From assembly GCA_026397755.1 (NCBI GenBank), contig JAPLUF010000128.1:1-37372 (forward strand): a DNA stretch of 37,372 nucleotides, in the 5' to 3' direction. The position numbers were made by a program, and so were the translations under genes. The notes under the pieces were generated by a model. It saw only the letters and a list, made by a program, of their open reading frames with translations, was not told the origin of the DNA and made no database searches. Each line of letters starts with the position of its first letter. Position 1 is the first letter of the stretch. The DNA comes from Verrucomicrobiota bacterium. Its GTDB lineage: Bacteria; Verrucomicrobiota; Verrucomicrobiia; Limisphaerales; UBA9464. Of this stretch, positions 11,429-18,525 are shown piece after piece.

Positions 11429-12724
11429 ATGTCCCCTCGTCCTTCTCTCGCCATCATTGGTACTGGAATTGCCGGACTCGGCTGCGCTCATTTCTTGCAT
11501 CGCCAGTTCGATCTGACGCTCTTCGATCCCAACAACCACGTCGGCGGGCATACCAACACCATCGAAGTGGTGGAGCCGGGCGGTCCTGTGCCTTTCGACA
11601 CGGGGTTCATGGTATTCAACCGGGTGACTTACCCCTATTTGGTGACCTTGTTCGAGGAACTCCATGTGCCGGTTCAACGCACCGATATGTCGTTCTCGGT
11701 TCAGCATGTCCCCAGTGGATTGGAGTTCTCGGGCTCCAGCTTGAATCATCTGTTCGCTCAGCGGCGTAATTTGTTTCGGCCCCGGTATTGGCGAATGCTC
11801 CTGCAGGTCAATCGCTTCAATGCCGAGGCGGTGCCCGCGTTGTCGGATCCGCAATGGGCCTCTGTGACCGTCGGCGATTATGTCGCACGTCGCGGTTACG
11901 GGCGGGATTTTCTCGAGCATTATCTCATTCCGATGAGTGGTGCGGTTTGGAGCACGCCTCCGGACCGGATGCTGGAGTTCCCGGCGCGCACCCTCATTCA
12001 GTTCTTCCACAACCATGGGTTCCTGGGCCTGCACACTCAGCATCCCTGGTGGACCGTGACCGGAGGGGCCCGCGAATATGTCCGCCGGCTGATCCCGCCC
12101 TTTGCCGACCGTATCCGGACCGGTTTGGGCGTGGTGGCGGTGCGTCGCGAGAGGGGCTCCGTTTGGGTGACCACTGACGACGGGCAGACCCATCGCTTCG
12201 ACAACGTGATCCTCGCGGCCCACGCCGATGAGTCACTGCGCCTGCTCACCGATGCCGATGCGGATGAGCGGCGGTTGCTCGGCGCCTTCCAGTATCAACC
12301 GAACCTGGCGACGGTGCACAGCGATCAGAACGTCATGCCCAAGGCTCGGCTTGCCTGGTCGGCCTGGAATTATCGCATGTCGCGGCATCCCTCCGGAGCC
12401 GTTCTCCCGCAGACCGTGTATTGGATGAACAGCCTTCAGGGCCTCAAAACGGACACCGACTATTTCGTGTCCATCAATGGCGAGCACGAGATCGATCCGG
12501 CCCGCGTTCACCGCAAGATTCCTTACACCCATCCGCTCTTCAGTCTGGAGGCCATTGCCGCCCAGAAGGAGTTGCCCGGCCTCAACCGTCGCGGAAACGG
12601 CCAGAATGTTTTCTTCGCCGGCAGCTACTTTCGCTACGGATTCCACGAAGACGCCTTCGGCAGTGCTGTGCAACTGTCCCGAGTCCTCAGTCACGAGCCC
12701 GTCTACCCGGGTATTGGTGAGTGA
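11429..12724 (+). CDS. FAD-dependent amine-oxidase-like protein, COG2907 family
   Basis: This is a 431-residue flavoprotein. The N-terminal dinucleotide fold starts SLAIIGTGIAGLGCAHFL, and the second FAD contact is the amine-oxidase-like VGGHTNTIEV. The family marks FDTGFMVFNRVTYPYL, FARR-type AQRRNLFRPRYW and the C-terminal VFFAGSYFRYGFHEDAF are all present. COG2907 genes usually sit beside DUF1365 and a cyclopropane-fatty-acid-synthase-like gene for modifying membrane lipids. Neither is present here; instead a sulfite dehydrogenase pair follows 91 bases downstream. The ATG at 11429 puts the FAD fold at residue 6. The substrate is unknown. Confidence 0.88.
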   Translation: MSPRPSLAIIGTGIAGLGCAHFLHRQFDLTLFDPNNHVGGHTNTIEVVEPGGPVPFDTGFMVFNRVTYPYLVTLFEELHVPVQRTDMSFSVQHVPSGLEFSGSSLNHLFAQRRNLFRPRYWRMLLQVNRFNAEAVPALSDPQWASVTVGDYVARRGYGRDFLEHYLIPMSGAVWSTPPDRMLEFPARTLIQFFHNHGFLGLHTQHPWWTVTGGAREYVRRLIPPFADRIRTGLGVVAVRRERGSVWVTTDDGQTHRFDNVILAAHADESLRLLTDADADERRLLGAFQYQPNLATVHSDQNVMPKARLAWSAWNYRMSRHPSGAVLPQTVYWMNSLQGLKTDTDYFVSINGEHEIDPARVHRKIPYTHPLFSLEAIAAQKELPGLNRRGNGQNVFFAGSYFRYGFHEDAFGSAVQLSRVLSHEPVYPGIGE

Positions 12725-12815
12725 CTGGAGGATCGTATGGAGGACCGTGGACAGGGTTCATTCTGTATCTCTCGGCGCTTTTCTAGGTCCATCATTCGGG
12801 GTTACCTTCGGATCC

Positions 12816-14039
12816 ATGCACCGGGAACTGGGAGAAGAGGGAACCAGCCGTCGGAGGTTCTTGAAGGCCGGCTTGGCTGGGCTGGCTGCTTCAGCCTGGG
12901 CTGAAGATAGGGTGCAACTGCCCTTCGACATTGGCGAACGGCCGCTAGTCAAGTATCCCCAGAAACGCCCCCTGATCCGTCACACGGCCCGTCCGCCGCA
13001 GTTGGAGACTCCATTTTCGGTTTATCAGGAAAGCCTGCTCACACCGAACGATGCCTTTTTCGTTCGCTATCACTTGGCCGGTTCGCCGCCTCCTCAGTCG
13101 GTGCTGAGCCCGGAGACCTTCCGCTTGCAAGTGCGCGGAACCATCCAGACGCCGCAGACCTGGAGCTTGGAGACGCTGAAGGAGAAGTTTGAGTCGGTCG
13201 AAGTGGTCGCCGTGAACCAATGCTCCGGAAATAGTCGAGGCTTCTTCCAACCGCGTGTTCCAGGAGGACAATCGGGCCATGGCAACATGGGGTGTGCGCG
13301 CTGGCGCGGGGTCCGCTTGGCCGATGTGCTCAAGGCTTCCAACTTGCTGCCTCAGTCTAAGCAGGTGCTCTTCGACGGGCTCGATCGGCCGTTGGTAGCC
13401 AGTATTCCCGACTTTGTGAAGGCGTTGGATGTTGAGCAGGCGCTCGACCCGGATGTGCTGCTTGCCTGGGAGATGAACGGCGAAGCGTTGCCTTGGCTCA
13501 ATGGCTATCCGCTGCGTCTGGTGGTGCCGGGGCGCTACGGAACCTATTGGGTTAAGCACTTGCACTCGATTCAGGTGGTGGACGCAACGTTCATTGGGTT
13601 CTGGATGAATCCGGCCTACCGCATTCCCGACGATCCTTGTGCGCATGTGGCTCCCGGAACCACGCCCAAGCGCACCGTGCCGATTGACCGGTTCAATGTG
13701 CGGTCTTTCCTCACCAGTCACCGGTCGGGAGATCGAATCGGGCCTGCAGGGCAGGGCGTGACGTTGCGCGGCATTGCCTTTGACGGCGGGTCGGGGATCT
13801 CGGATGTGACCGTGTCCACCGATGGTGGAAAGCGTTGGACGACCGCCCAACTGGGCAAGGATCTCGGCCGCTATGCTTTTCGAGAGTGGACCCTCGACTG
13901 GCGGCCTCCGACGGAGGGTTCGCCGGAGATTTTGGCCCGGGCCACCAATCGCCTCGGGCAAAGCCAACCAATGGATGCGCTGTGGAATCCAGCGGGCTAC
14001 ATGCGCAATGTCGTGGAACGAACCGTATTGAGCTTATGA
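12816..14039 (+). CDS. sorA: SorA-like molybdopterin sulfite dehydrogenase, Tat-exported
   Basis: This enzyme family oxidises sulfite to sulfate in the periplasm and passes electrons to cytochrome c. The 407-residue protein has a twin-arginine signal (TSRRRFLKAGLAGLAASAWA). The molybdenum-ligand Cys is at residue 136 in VAVNQCSGNSRGFF, and the cofactor-binding segment GHGNMGCARWRGVRL follows. The C-terminal third (from about residue 300) is the Ig-like dimerisation domain, with VSTDGGKRW. The last codons overlap the cytochrome gene by ATGA, which strongly supports a SorAB pair. An open frame reaches back to 12477 inside the flavoprotein gene, but the ATG at 12816 directly precedes the Tat signal. 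Substrate assignment as sulfite is by family; other sulfur compounds are possible. Confidence 0.85.
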   Translation: MHRELGEEGTSRRRFLKAGLAGLAASAWAEDRVQLPFDIGERPLVKYPQKRPLIRHTARPPQLETPFSVYQESLLTPNDAFFVRYHLAGSPPPQSVLSPETFRLQVRGTIQTPQTWSLETLKEKFESVEVVAVNQCSGNSRGFFQPRVPGGQSGHGNMGCARWRGVRLADVLKASNLLPQSKQVLFDGLDRPLVASIPDFVKALDVEQALDPDVLLAWEMNGEALPWLNGYPLRLVVPGRYGTYWVKHLHSIQVVDATFIGFWMNPAYRIPDDPCAHVAPGTTPKRTVPIDRFNVRSFLTSHRSGDRIGPAGQGVTLRGIAFDGGSGISDVTVSTDGGKRWTTAQLGKDLGRYAFREWTLDWRPPTEGSPEILARATNRLGQSQPMDALWNPAGYMRNVVERTVLSL

Positions 14040-14413
14040 TCCTGCGCTATTTTCAATACTCCACCTCGGGTCGTGGAATCCTCAGAGCTGTGGTGGCGTT
14101 GATGGGTGCTTTGGCACTGGCCGCGGCCACGGCGACCGTTCCGGAGTCTCCCAAAGCCAACCCGCATCACGCCGATGCTTGGGTGCTCCCTGTGGGTGAG
14201 CCAGCGCTGCCCGAGGGAGATCTGGCTGCACCGATTCGCCGCCATTGTGCCCTTTGCCATTCCTTCGACTACATTGCCACCCAGCCCCGATTGAGCCGAA
14301 CCGGGTGGACGGCCAGTGTCGAAAAGATGCGGGCCAAATACGGAGCACCGATCCCCACCAATGACGTGCCCGCCTTGGTGAATTTCTTGGTCAAGCACCA
14401 CGGCAAGGAATAA
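14036..14413 (+). CDS. sorB: SorB-like monohaem cytochrome c
   Basis: This is a 125-residue exported cytochrome. A hydrophobic segment at about residues 17-34 acts as signal or anchor. One haem-attachment site, C71-A-L-C74-H75, sits in IRRHCALCHSFDYIATQPR, and Met96 in SVEKMRAKYGAP is a plausible distal ligand. Size and layout fit the electron-accepting subunit of a sulfite dehydrogenase. Its ATG overlaps the sorA stop (ATGA at 14036-14039), so translation is coupled. Confidence 0.85.
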   Translation: MILRYFQYSTSGRGILRAVVALMGALALAAATATVPESPKANPHHADAWVLPVGEPALPEGDLAAPIRRHCALCHSFDYIATQPRLSRTGWTASVEKMRAKYGAPIPTNDVPALVNFLVKHHGKE

Positions 14414-14511
14414 AAGCTCGCTCAGGCGCGCTTGGGGAATGCACATCCGATCTAGCTATGAACTGCATTGAGGTTTCATCGTCCGTGGACACGATGATTC
14501 GAGGGAGTTTG

Positions 14512-15819
14512 ATGAGGAGAGGTCGGCCCCGTGCGTTGGGCGCGTTCGGCGTGCTGGGTGCCCTGCTAGCTGTGCTGTTGGCATCTTTAGCCTTGGTGGC
14601 TGCCGATGCCCCAGCACCCGCTTCGAGCAAAGCATCCAAGCCAGCCAAGGCAGATGTTCGCACCAACGTCCACCGCCGCTCGCCGCTGCCCAACGTGGTG
14701 ATTCTCGCAGCCGACGGCTGGGCAGATTCAGACCTAGGAACCAACGGGGCTTTCCCGAATCTGGAAAAGCTGGCCGTCTCGGGCCTGCGCTGGTCCCAGG
14801 CTTACGCGGGCGCTGCATCGACTCCCGCGAGTCGTGCGGCGCTGCTGACCGGACGGCATTCCGGGCATGGTCGGATCCGCGGGCCGGTTCCTGGTCCGCT
14901 GGCCAACGAAGATGTCACTCTCGGAGAAATATTTCGGGCGGCGGGATACCGGACGGCGGTGATTGGTGTGTGGGACTTGGGCGGCAACAACACTCCGGGC
15001 CATCCGATGAAGCAGGGCTTTTCGGATTGGTTTGGTTTTCTGGATTCCCGCGAGGCCAAGGACCTGTACCCCAAGGCCCTGTGGCGGAATACCGATGTCT
15101 TCGACAACCTCATCGACCAACGCGGGCGTTTGGCTAATTACGCCCCCGACTGGTTCGCGCGGTTCGCCACCAACTACATCCAGGTTCATGAGGATCACCC
15201 ATTCTTTCTGTATGTGGCTCATCCGCTACCCGGTGGCGTTGCTTCCGAAGATGTGCGCGGACGCCATCGATTGCAGTGGGATACCTTTGTCGGTGCGGTG
15301 GTTCGGGAACTCGAGCAAAGCCGCATTCGGCGCGAGACGCTCCTCGTGGTGACCAGTACTAGCGCAACCGCTCCCGGGGAGGATCGACTGGCCGAGGCCC
15401 GGCTCCGGGTGCCGCTGCTCTTCAGTTGGCCGGGCAAGATTCCGGCCGGCCAGACCAACGAACGCCCGGTGGCCTTGTGGGATGTATTGCCCACGGTCGC
15501 GGCCCTGGCTCGGATTCCGGTCCCTCAGGGCCTCGATGGTATTTCGCTCCTGCCGGAAGTGTTGGGGGGGCTCAAAGAGCCCTCCAATCGTGCCGGCGGC
15601 CTGTACTGGGAAACGGCCGAGGCCTCACCGAGTCGGGCGATCCGCTGGGACGATTGGAAGGCCGTCGAGCACCCCTCGACAGGAACGGTCAAACTGTATG
15701 ACCTGAAGGCCGATCCTGCTGCTGTGCAGAATGTCGCGGCTCATCAACCTGAACGGCTTGCCGAGGCCCGTCGCCGGTTGCGCGAAGCGGCCGACCCGTT
15801 GTCCCCTCATCGTCCCTAA
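14512..15819 (+). CDS. Sulfatase-fold protein lacking catalytic residues (pseudo-sulfatase)
   Basis: This is an exported protein of about 435 residues with the type I sulfatase fold. The start at 14512 gives a signal peptide with an n-region MRRGRPR and follows a GAGGGAG-type site; an ATG at 14458 is the alternative. Fold landmarks are clear: PNVVILAADG, SRAALLTGRHSGHGRIRG, FSDWFGFLDS, FFLYVAHPLP, PLLFSWPGKIPAG and LDGISLLPEVL. The active site is not conserved. The formylglycine position of C-x-P-S-R reads T-P-A-S-R, the metal-binding DD reads DG, GKWHLG reads GVWDLG, the SDNG ligands read STSA, and PHxP reads PGGV. Sulfate ester hydrolysis is therefore unlikely. It follows sorAB on the same strand and precedes larB by 14 bases. 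Role unknown; a binding or scaffolding role is possible. Confidence 0.8.
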   Translation: MRRGRPRALGAFGVLGALLAVLLASLALVAADAPAPASSKASKPAKADVRTNVHRRSPLPNVVILAADGWADSDLGTNGAFPNLEKLAVSGLRWSQAYAGAASTPASRAALLTGRHSGHGRIRGPVPGPLANEDVTLGEIFRAAGYRTAVIGVWDLGGNNTPGHPMKQGFSDWFGFLDSREAKDLYPKALWRNTDVFDNLIDQRGRLANYAPDWFARFATNYIQVHEDHPFFLYVAHPLPGGVASEDVRGRHRLQWDTFVGAVVRELEQSRIRRETLLVVTSTSATAPGEDRLAEARLRVPLLFSWPGKIPAGQTNERPVALWDVLPTVAALARIPVPQGLDGISLLPEVLGGLKEPSNRAGGLYWETAEASPSRAIRWDDWKAVEHPSTGTVKLYDLKADPAAVQNVAAHQPERLAEARRRLREAADPLSPHRP

Positions 15820-15833
15820 TACACTTCGATTCC

Positions 15834-16631
15834 ATGAGTCCCACGGATGCCCTCACGCTGTTAGAACGTTTTCGCAATGGTCAGGTGCCTGTCGAGCAAG
15901 TCCTTCAAGCCTTCCAGGCGGCCCCGGTGGTGGATCTAGGATTTGCCGTCGTCGATCAGCATCGAGCCCTGCGCAAGGGGTTCCCGGAGGTCATCTTTGG
16001 TGCGAGCAAAACCCCGGAACAGGTGGTGGCGATTGCCGGGGAAATTCTGGCGGCCGACGGACGAGTTCTCACCACGCGGGTGACCCCGGAACATGCCCGA
16101 GCCATGAAGGAGAAGTTTCCGCACACGATCCATCATGAGGCGGCCCGCTGTCTGACTCTTGAAACATCGCCGCTTCCCAAGCGGCCAGGAATCATTGCTG
16201 TCGTGGCCGCCGGCACGACCGATCTTCCGGTCGCCGAAGAGGCCGCGGTGACCGCTGACTTTATGGGCAACACCGTCCAGCGGATTTACGACGTCGGCGT
16301 GGCGGGGTTGCACCGCCTGCTGCGCCGGCTTCCCGACATTCAGTCTGCCAATGTGGTGATCGTGGTGGCGGGAATGGAAGCTGCATTGCCGAGTGTGGTT
16401 GGTGGCCTTATCAGCCGGCCTATCATTGGGGTCCCCACCAGTGTGGGGTATGGCTCCCACTTCGGCGGCCTGACGGCGCTGTTAGGAATGCTCAATTCCT
16501 GCGCCAGCGGTCTCACGGTGGTGAACATCGACAACGGCTTCGGAGCCGGTTACGCCGCCAGCGGCATTAATGCACTGGCCGCATCCTCATCGTCTGCGTC
16601 GGCTGCCTCGCTCTCGTCGACTCAGCCGTAA
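15834..16631 (+). CDS. larB: LarB, nickel-pincer cofactor biosynthesis carboxylase
   Basis: LarB carboxylates the pyridinium ring of nicotinic acid adenine dinucleotide and hydrolyses it, the first step towards the nickel-pincer nucleotide of lactate racemase and related enzymes. The 265-residue protein has the C-terminal AIR-carboxylase (PurE-like) domain: IAVVAAGTTDLPVAEEAA, VVIVVAGMEAALPSVVGGL, IIGVPTSVGYG and TVVNIDNGFGAGYAA. A Ser/Ala-rich tail ends the protein. larC and larE are not in the window. The LarB substrate NaAD is made by NadD, whose gene is convergent next door; this is a suggestive but unproven link. Confidence 0.92.
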   Translation: MSPTDALTLLERFRNGQVPVEQVLQAFQAAPVVDLGFAVVDQHRALRKGFPEVIFGASKTPEQVVAIAGEILAADGRVLTTRVTPEHARAMKEKFPHTIHHEAARCLTLETSPLPKRPGIIAVVAAGTTDLPVAEEAAVTADFMGNTVQRIYDVGVAGLHRLLRRLPDIQSANVVIVVAGMEAALPSVVGGLISRPIIGVPTSVGYGSHFGGLTALLGMLNSCASGLTVVNIDNGFGAGYAASGINALAASSSSASAASLSSTQP

Positions 16632-16688
16632 CGATTGAGTGAGGAGGAATGGGGTTGCGTGGCCAGCACGACTCATCTGAGGGAACCG

Positions 16689-17330
16689 TTACGACTCAGA
16701 AGGGTTCTGGTAAAGCCCCTCAGAGGCGATGACGTCGGCCGAGCCGGCGGGCACTAGGTGCGCGAAGGGAAGCCCCCGACGGATCCGGTCTCGGACCTCC
16801 GACGAGGAAATGCCAAGCGGCCACCCACGCAGGTGACGAAGTCGCCAGGGCGAAGGCAGGGAAGCCTGAGGTTGGCCGGGTCTTGGAATGACCACGAAGG
16901 TCACTGCCTTGGCCAACGCCTCGGCCTCACGCCATTGGGTTAAGGTGGGCACATGATCAGCCCCGATCAGCCAGAAGAGTTCAGCTCCCGGATGCCGGGC
17001 ATTGAACGTGTTGACCGTATCGATCGAGTAGCTCACGCCGCCTCGGCTCAGCTCATTATCATGGACCTCGGTGCGGGATTGGCCGGCCAGTGATCGACGG
17101 AGCATTCGCAATCGGGCTGCATCTGGGGCAGGTCGGGAACCCGGCTTGAAGGGTGACTGTGCGGCAGGAATAAAGAATAACCGGTCCAGCGCCAGTTCCT
17201 CCAGAGCCGCTTGGGCAACCAGCAGATGGCCACAGTGCAGCGGATCGAACGATCCTCCGTACAATCCCCATCGCGGTGGGCGATCGGGATTTGGAGTCGG
17301 GGAGGATGCCCTTGGGATCACTAGATTCAT
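16689..17330 (-). CDS. nadD: Nicotinate-nucleotide adenylyltransferase
   Basis: NadD makes nicotinic acid adenine dinucleotide from NaMN and ATP. The 213-residue protein has the nucleotidyltransferase motif GLYGGSFDPLHCGHLLVA, the segment FFIPAAQSPFK, LIGADHVPTLTQW, and the closing ISSSEVRDRIRRG. It starts at the ATG at 17328-17330 with a short Pro/Arg-rich extension before the fold. It is divergent from nadA across 250 bases, so NAD synthesis genes are grouped. Confidence 0.95.
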   Translation of the reverse strand: MNLVIPRASSPTPNPDRPPRWGLYGGSFDPLHCGHLLVAQAALEELALDRLFFIPAAQSPFKPGSRPAPDAARLRMLRRSLAGQSRTEVHDNELSRGGVSYSIDTVNTFNARHPGAELFWLIGADHVPTLTQWREAEALAKAVTFVVIPRPGQPQASLPSPWRLRHLRGWPLGISSSEVRDRIRRGLPFAHLVPAGSADVIASEGLYQNPSES

Positions 17331-17580
17331 GCTTGCTGCGCTAGAGTCCGCGCACTTCGCCGGCCCGAGTCAATCTTCCAGCCGGAGCCATGCCTGCAGT
17401 TTCGAACAAAGTCTCTAGGGACAGGCTCACTTTACTCGGACAACCGGGCCGCTTGGGCCAGGGACAGGCTGTTGGTCGCAGTTCGGAGCATGGCTTCGTC
17501 GTGGCTGGGCGATTCGGGCTTGGCTCGGACAATGCGACCCAACCCTTGGCACCGAGGGGTCTCGGGCTTAGCGTCTGTCC
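17331..17580. other. Divergent nadD/nadA promoter region
   Basis: This is a 250-base region with no gene I can support. An 11-base direct repeat AGGGACAGGCT occurs at 17417-17427 and again at 17460-17470, spaced by 32 bases. It could bind a shared regulator, but I recognise no known NAD-repressor site. Confidence 0.35.
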
Positions 17581-18525
17581 ATGGTTCACGCGTCCGATCC
17601 GCTGATCGCCTCTGTCCGCAAGCCGATGCCGCCGGCGCAGTTCGATGCCCTTTCCCGGGAGATCTTGGAACTGAAGCGTCGGCATAACGCCGTGATTCTG
17701 GCCCACAACTATCAGGTGCCGGAGATCCAGGACGTGGCCGACTTCGTAGGTGATTCCCTGGGCTTGTCCCAGCAGGCAGCCAAGACTTCAGCCGATGTGA
17801 AGCGGGTCATTCTCCCGGATCGCGATGCCGGTTGCTCCCTCGAAGAGAGTTGCCCGGCTGCAAAATTACGGGAACTCCAGGCGACCAATCCCGATTTCTA
17901 CACCATCGCTTATATTAACTGCTCGGCCGAGGTGAAGGCCTTGAGCGACTGCATCGTGACCAGCGGCAATGCGGTCAAAATTGTCGAGCACGCGCCGAAG
18001 GATCGGCCGTTGTTGTTCGTTCCGGATGAAAACCTGGGGGCTTGGGTCATCGAACAAACGGGTCGGCCAATGACCCTTTGGAAGGGCAATTGCTACGTCC
18101 ACGTTGAGTGGACCCACCAGGCCATCACCCGGATCCGCCAGCAGTTCCCCGGGGCTCCGGTTGTGGCCCACCCCGAGTGTACCCGATCGGTGCGGATGCT
18201 GGCTGACGAAGTTTGCTCCACCGAGAAGATGATCACCTGGTGCCGGAAGACCCCGGCCAAGGACATCATCATCGCCACCGAGGCAGGCATGTTGCACCGC
18301 CTGCAAAAGGAGTGCCCCGACAAGCATTTTATCCCGGCCCCGACGGAGCGTTGTGCCTGCAACGAGTGTCATTTCATGAAGATGAACACCCTCGAGAAGC
18401 TCCGGGATTGCATGACTACCTTGGAGCCCCAAGTCCTCTTGCCGCCTGAGATCATTGAGCGCGCCCGCAAGCCCATCGAGCGAATGCTGGAGATCAGCGC
18501 CTTACCCCTAGAAAACGCGGGCTGA
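17581..18525 (+). CDS. nadA: Quinolinate synthase with internal deletion
   Basis: NadA condenses iminoaspartate with dihydroxyacetone phosphate at a [4Fe-4S] cluster to give quinolinate. This 314-residue protein keeps the three cluster-cysteine regions: AGCSLEESCP (Cys85), WKGNCYVHVEWTH (Cys171) and RCACNECHFMKMNTLEKL (around Cys260). It also keeps AHNYQVPEIQDVADFVGDSL. Between ADV (ending at base 17799) and KRVILPD about 19 residues are missing. In E. coli and other NadA proteins this stretch contains the conserved GVxFMxETAKI block. The deletion is in frame. Either the enzyme is impaired or the assembly lost 57 bases here. The start at 17581 gives a 20-residue extension; a later ATG (residue 16) is possible. 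Confidence 0.9.
   Translation: MVHASDPLIASVRKPMPPAQFDALSREILELKRRHNAVILAHNYQVPEIQDVADFVGDSLGLSQQAAKTSADVKRVILPDRDAGCSLEESCPAAKLRELQATNPDFYTIAYINCSAEVKALSDCIVTSGNAVKIVEHAPKDRPLLFVPDENLGAWVIEQTGRPMTLWKGNCYVHVEWTHQAITRIRQQFPGAPVVAHPECTRSVRMLADEVCSTEKMITWCRKTPAKDIIIATEAGMLHRLQKECPDKHFIPAPTERCACNECHFMKMNTLEKLRDCMTTLEPQVLLPPEIIERARKPIERMLEISALPLENAG

Follow-up and report, generated by a model that had tools for sequence, protein, structure and literature searches.

Verrucomicrobiota and their relatives possess large sulfatase repertoires, which are counted as evidence for the use of sulfated glycans. The same is said of the PVC group in the accessible text of PMC6388578. A table in PMC4014121 gives ten active-site residues of sulfatases, including four metal ligands (Asp, Asp, Asp, Asn), FGly-binding Arg and Lys, and sulfate-binding His and Lys, while the formylglycine consensus quoted from PMC10154612 is C/S-X-P/A-S/X-R, the Cys or Ser being converted. 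In its accessible part, the SulfAtlas paper (PMC5066984) mentions nine sequences from Lentisphaerae and Planctomycetes in which a charged residue of the catalytic site is gone and which are perhaps inactive. Pseudoenzymes are already known as a kind and, as the accessible text of the review PMC10211241 has it, lose a catalytic motif and keep the fold; nowhere does that review use the word 'sulfatase'. The open-licence literature searched, to the extent of its accessible text, yielded no paper on bacterial S1 pseudo-sulfatases.

We analysed a stretch of 37,372 nucleotides from a Verrucomicrobiota contig (JAPLUF010000128.1), hereafter the window, which encodes a protein of this sort.

14458 to 15819, + strand: degenerate S1-type sulfatase (pseudo-sulfatase), the longest open reading frame, 453 amino acids, with Pfam matches
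14494 to 14610, + strand: signal-peptide-like N-terminal region, with a basic start and a hydrophobic stretch as read from the translation; poorly conserved

Translation of the window bears out the open frame reported in a preliminary description of this DNA. The start proposed there, 14512, is a valid in-frame ATG but is one of three (14458, 14494 and 14512), the frame itself opening at 14458. Since orthologue alignment shows ATG 14494, encoding the Met of MIRG, to be the start most widely common to orthologues, the real start is probably either 14494 or 14512. The character of the N-terminal region suggests that the protein is secreted.

The window protein has the full-length S1-sulfatase fold, as had been proposed. 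It matches Pfam Sulfatase (PF00884) with an E-value of 2.3e-32 (112.9 bits against a cut-off of 25) and SGSH_C with an E-value of 7.6e-13. An AlphaFold2 model based on 15 sequences has a pTM of 0.74 and a mean pLDDT of 71.6, the low values lying mainly at residues 1-71, and its best structural matches are the S1 sulfatase 9fo1 (Z 40.2, 2.5 Å over 361 residues) and 6prm (Z 40.1). Fold and PF00884 match are those of the S1 FGly-sulfatases of SulfAtlas. With the nearest solved members (S1_16 9fo1, PsS1_19B 6prm/6psm, and 7anb) it shares the whole fold and the C-terminal subdomain; the superpositions cover about 360 residues at 28-30% identity, with Z about 40. Unlike them, it lacks the FGly-forming Cys or Ser, the catalytic Lys and the sulfate-binding His and Lys, its metal site is incomplete, and two of its active-site loops are shortened. 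The altered sites are as follows.

14713 to 14718, + strand: former Asp-Asp metal pair, now D86-G87, located by orthologue alignment
14821 to 14835, + strand: former formylglycine motif C-x-P-S-R, now T-P-A-S-R (residues 122-126)
14965 to 14982, + strand: former GKW(A/H)LG, now GVWDLG (residues 170-175), Lys171 being gone
15229 to 15234, + strand: former sulfate-binding Pro-His, now P258-G259; the next loop is shortened
15355 to 15366, + strand: former SDNG metal ligands, now STSA (residues 300-303); the next loop, with the sulfate-binding Lys, is shortened

When the ten positions of PMC4014121 were mapped onto the window protein through its alignment with intact orthologues, two were found to be kept, namely Asp86 (first metal ligand) and Arg126 (FGly-binding). 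G87 now stands in place of the second Asp, T122 of the nucleophile, V171 of the Lys, G259 of the sulfate-binding His, and T301 and S302 of the Asp-Asn pair, and the last Lys is gone as well, so that a single metal ligand of four, and only the Arg of the Arg/Lys/His/Lys set, remain. The PHANNE loop and the loop from SDNG to Lys are each about 20 residues shorter than in intact orthologues. All five motifs had been read correctly beforehand (D86-G87; T122-P-A-S-R126; GVWDLG at 170-175; P258-G-G-V261; S300-T-S-A303). The accompanying statement that every catalytic landmark was lost holds for most sites, but is slightly too strong in view of Asp86 and Arg126. Similarly, the change from GKWHLG to GVWDLG includes a real loss, Lys171 to Val, but its His is not counted as one because the intact orthologues, which mostly read GKWALG, already have Ala or Gly there. 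Judged by these residues, the protein should have no sulfatase activity.

That it might still act as a sulfatase, through a shifted nucleophile at Ser121 or through an unmodified Thr122, is scarcely credible. Ser121 is indeed invariant in the clade described below, but residue 122 may be T, A, I or P and residue 123 P, A or R, and the sequence further contradicts the idea in lacking the second Asp, the Asp-Asn pair, the Lys and the His. A shifted but complete active site, the finding that the preliminary description considered fatal to its own reading, was looked for in the alignment and not found: Arg lies at +5 rather than +4 from Ser121 and most metal ligands are gone.

The family search covered 50 genomes, of which 19, including the window's, belong to one genus (g1). 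The degenerate form is present in 12 of these 19, as ten full-length copies and two cut by contig ends (285 amino acids in G028; 118 in G023, reaching only the first metal site). Both partial copies agree with the losses over their extent; they (L016 and L026) were left out of trees and invariance counts, and pieces of own-genome paralogues (L003-L007) were left out of trees. Six genomes (G020, G024, G025, G030, G032 and G035) carry an intact orthologue, neither form was found in G029 (77% complete), and no genome among the 19 shows both. In every full-length degenerate copy the nucleophile, second Asp, Lys, His and Asp-Asn pair are gone, the Lys being replaced by V171 in all ten, while Ser125 and Arg126 are invariant, window included. 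Position 86 is D in seven copies, E in two and G in one, and position 122 shows the four residues mentioned above, none of them Cys or Ser. With these losses common to all ten, chance is no serious option, and the expectation that orthologues in related genomes would share them is confirmed throughout the full-length congeneric copies. Orthologues with a full site, which had been named as a contrary finding, do literally exist in six of the 19 genomes; however, they belong to other species still in the catalytic state, and thus help to date the loss without contradicting it.

For ten of the orthologues the source is a public MAG record, whose title is Verrucomicrobia, Verrucomicrobiota, Verrucomicrobiales or Verrucomicrobium in eight cases and Akkermansia muciniphila in two. 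The latter (L042 and L043) contain the locus, with 77% and 76% identity to the window protein over the best segments; because they fall in the window's genus group, these titles are probably wrong. An assembly or sequencing artefact was ruled out by the occurrence of the same losses in separate MAGs of the genus. So was a genome-wide loss of sulfatase use, since the window genome and its relatives keep full-motif sulfatases (L002 and others; L210, L211 and L213), the next-best sulfatases read in degenerate genomes being other paralogues with a full site. One degenerate copy (L044 3679-5139, genome G026) has some 24 extra residues, simple in composition, inserted into the old metal loop; the aligned intact orthologues all lack them.

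As judged from alignments and trees, the degenerate clade descends from a catalytic S1 sulfatase within the genus, intact in other species. The intact form (e.g. L025 in G035, L030 in G011) is its orthologue by tree and identity, has the complete set D-D-C-R-K-H-D-N-K, and lies by dxs in the same genus or by larA in most other genera, not between sorB and larB. In a tree of 40 rows the degenerate clade falls among its intact congeners (99/100). With all other degenerate proteins excluded, a 34-row tree recovers the genus at 100/100; with only the g9 pair excluded, a 49-row tree does so at 91/100. An unconstrained 51-row tree instead put the degenerate proteins of g1 and g9 together (97/89), a grouping that carries a long-branch warning; the tree holding intact and degenerate g1 proteins together has a log-likelihood higher by 20.6. 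On average the window protein is 47.2% identical to its intact congeners, compared with at most 43.0% for other intact groups.

The gene is constrained, but less than its enzymatic neighbours. Over 45 full-length pairs, omega (dN/dS, Nei-Gojobori) lies between 0.155 and 0.294, as is inconsistent with decay, with a highest bootstrap upper bound of 0.371 (pair G022-G021); pairs involving the two partial copies give 0.136-0.433. Intact congeners show 0.055-0.159 in seven non-saturated pairs, 8 of 15 pairs being saturated. Control genes, compared in ten pairs of the same genomes where present on the locus, yield 0.014-0.124 for sorA, 0.034-0.099 for larB, 0.009-0.040 for nadA and 0.111-0.557 for sorB, and the pseudo-sulfatase changes at roughly three times the rate of sorA and larB. 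No stop or frameshift occurs in the ten full-length copies at pairwise dS of up to about 2, while in simulation 0.1 random substitutions per site left 1.5% of 200 copies stop-free. Homologous fold, lost catalytic residues and maintenance by purifying selection are thus found together, as in a pseudoenzyme, and the common losses and the selection support the earlier suggestion of a non-catalytic role rather than recent decay. A slowly decaying relic on its way to being lost is very improbable for this clade, the absence of stops and frameshifts and an omega well below 1 largely refuting it. Such a course would account for the fast N-terminal 70 residues and for genus g8, to which it could still apply: there three genomes carry an intact orthologue and two a degenerate one, and three have none between larA and galE.

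The losses concentrate in the pocket. Alignment columns that do not vary among 18 intact orthologues were classed as pocket or non-pocket according to how far they lie from the catalytic positions: all ten degenerate copies keep 14 of 65 in the pocket as against 56 of the 84 scaffold columns outside it (Fisher p 3.6e-8). Within the clade, no part of the domain evolves faster than the old pocket loops, with omega of 0.35 and 0.42, while residues 1-70 have a pooled omega of 0.65 with 3 of 70 invariant. The main rival to a binding role bears on this region. It holds that the protein was neofunctionalised, its old pocket rebuilt with new residues for metal-free chemistry or small-ligand binding. 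Newly fixed residues do occupy or adjoin the old pocket (Ser121, Asp173 and His255, along with the kept Arg126), and segment 168-188 has an omega of only 0.09; yet the loops lining the pocket are shortened as well as fast, and no catalytic set is evident in the sequence. We regard this rival as unlikely, though worth bearing in mind.

One part of the degenerate protein is very strongly conserved.

15136 to 15225, + strand: residues 227-256, comprising helix 229-243 and strand 249-255 in the predicted model; amino-acid sequence nearly frozen

In the degenerate clade 28 of these 30 residues are invariant and omega is 0.009. The segment has a dN of 0.008 compared with 0.152 for the domain, and a dS of 0.90 compared with 0.91; this equality of dS rules out constraint at the DNA level or from an antisense feature. 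Most of the segment is also fixed in the six intact congeners (e.g. W232, A234, R235, F236, N239, Y240 and H244-E245-D246-H247), but most of these residues vary in 18 intact proteins from other genera. A binding role is therefore probably older than the loss of catalysis. Shuffling of individual sites never reached such a run (0 of 5000), whereas shuffling in blocks of ten reached it in 315 of 5000, a marginal outcome according to which the frozen run may partly be ordinary clustering of conserved sites; the segment could also be structural core, not interface. Its helix is presumably surface-exposed. Elsewhere, the same 30-residue window is the lowest in dN in the g6 trio (rank 1 of 345), although with three sequences 1400 of 5000 shuffles are as extreme, and it ranks 99 of 345 in the g9 degenerate pair and 71 of 345 in the g8 degenerate pair.

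Our preferred reading, which we hold to be probable while allowing considerable doubt, is that of a secreted or periplasmic pseudo-sulfatase that lost its site in the ancestor of the subclade and has been selected for a non-catalytic, partner-binding job. Starting from a catalytic S1 sulfatase of the kind still intact in other species of the genus, the subclade ancestor would have lost the nucleophile, most of the metal site, the catalytic Lys, the sulfate-binding His and Lys and parts of two loops. Purifying selection would since have acted on the non-catalytic job, which may be binding of a partner, protein or glycan, by the surface helix and strand at about 227-256, or else service as a scaffold; the binding role would probably predate the loss of catalysis.

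The genes flanking the pseudo-sulfatase invite a more specific proposal.

12870 to 14039, + strand: sorA-like sulfite dehydrogenase catalytic subunit, within an open reading frame at 12477-14039; NCBIfam SorA, E 1.7e-179
13835 to 14413, + strand: sorB-like c-type cytochrome subunit, with its true start inside the open reading frame; NCBIfam SorB, E 1.2e-19
15834 to 16631, + strand: larB, nickel-pincer cofactor biosynthesis; NCBIfam LarB, E 9.3e-89, above cut-off

The sorA-like match scores 596.7 bits against an NCBIfam cut-off of 600, and the sorB-like match 70.2 bits against 93. In the window, the pseudo-sulfatase stands between the sorA- and sorB-like genes (12870-14413) and a run of larB, nadD and nadA (15834-18525), an order shared by the clade. 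LarB uses a nicotinate dinucleotide precursor, so its proximity to nadD and nadA makes metabolic sense. Across the 12 genomes of the clade the degenerate gene adjoins sorB, larB or both: sorB precedes at every locus reaching far enough upstream and larB follows wherever the downstream side is reached. In the window 44 bases separate the sorB stop from the first ATG, and larB begins 14 bases after the pseudo-sulfatase, spacings that make co-transcription with sorAB and larB plausible; a promoter and terminator scan gave nothing above chance. These constant neighbours and short spacings would be explained if the protein were a SorAB accessory, for example an anchoring or sulfite/sulfate-handling periplasmic partner. 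We nevertheless rate this as distinctly improbable, given that sorAB stands without an adjoining sulfatase in all five intact congeners inspected (G020, G024, G025, G032 and G035, some on short contigs), a different gene following sorB in G025, so that no fixed partner is evident. Only the window subclade shows the link, the degenerate proteins of g6, g8 and g9 not being found beside sorAB. In intact congeners the sulfatase gene lies upstream of dxs, and no sulfatase is present at six dxs loci from five degenerate genomes and G029; its position therefore differs between the two halves of the genus.

The orthologue has lost its site in other genera too, and this is new here. Sorted by nine catalytic positions, the family comprises 24 intact orthologues (L176 being cut short) and 17 full-length degenerate ones, the remainder of the 50 genomes having two partial degenerate rows, two intact rows that group elsewhere (G018 and G041) and, in five cases (G004, G029, G043, G044 and G045), no usable orthologue. 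The 17 are made up of ten from g1, three of three from g6, two from g8 (G037 and G042) and two from g9 (G046 and G048), the share among genomes with an orthologue being two of five in g8 and two of four in g9. By coordinates, larA and the sulfatase are neighbours on one contig in 17 of the 50 genomes, and outside g1 the orthologue usually follows larA; the degenerate orthologue still adjoins larA in g6 and g8. In three other g8 genomes (G041, G044 and G045; loci L181, L182 and L183) galE directly follows larA and the sulfatase is cleanly absent from between them, showing that the orthologue is dispensable in some relatives. Pairs of degenerate proteins give an omega of 0.27 (G016-G017) and 0.31 (G046-G048). 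One more degenerate relative, in G088 from another family, lies downstream of larA.

The hypothesis that all degenerate rows go back to one origin was rejected with 17 rows, some from outside the family (p 0.034), but not with 17 family rows (p 0.22), and a grouping of the g1 and g9 degenerate proteins was not rejected either (p 0.24). The trees are thus compatible with one loss or with several; the loci, and the fact that g1, g8 and g9 also contain intact congeners, make several losses more likely. Loss of the same site in the matching gene of several lineages suggests a second, non-cutting job. It is conceivable, and we offer it tentatively, that the larA-linked S1 sulfatase became a pseudoenzyme repeatedly (in g1, g6, g8 and g9, possibly also in G088) from a bifunctional ancestor, the catalytic site having been dispensable in some lineages and the partner-binding surface not; the window protein would then be the best-sampled example, with that surface at 227-256.

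Compared with the sequences mentioned in the accessible text of PMC5066984, which lack one residue, the whole site is gone here, throughout a clade, with selection measured and with repeats in other genera. We found no clade-wide, selected S1 pseudo-sulfatase with sister-genus repeats in the open-licence literature searched, within its accessible text. The results suggest that a freshwater Verrucomicrobiota lineage maintains under selection a secreted, sulfatase-shaped protein with an erased site and a second, non-cutting job. Sulfatase counts would mislabel such a conserved siteless homologue, its 112.9 bits exceeding the Pfam cut-off of 25. Because a single family naturally offers genomes with an intact orthologue, with a degenerate one and with none, sulfatase roles besides sulfate cleavage become directly testable.

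Three further loci deserve mention. In G007 two short stretches with 59-69% identity (L060 7538-7816) represent a larA remnant immediately upstream of an intact sulfatase; apparently larA decayed at this locus and the sulfatase did not. A relative in G077 (L163 7825-9024) has a Ser-type motif, S-T-P-S-R, with the sulfate-binding His replaced by Gln, and could be either an active enzyme of the Ser type or one at an early stage of degeneration. Finally, L165 24-14371 in G054 contains at least nine sulfatase-like matches in a row over about 14 kb.
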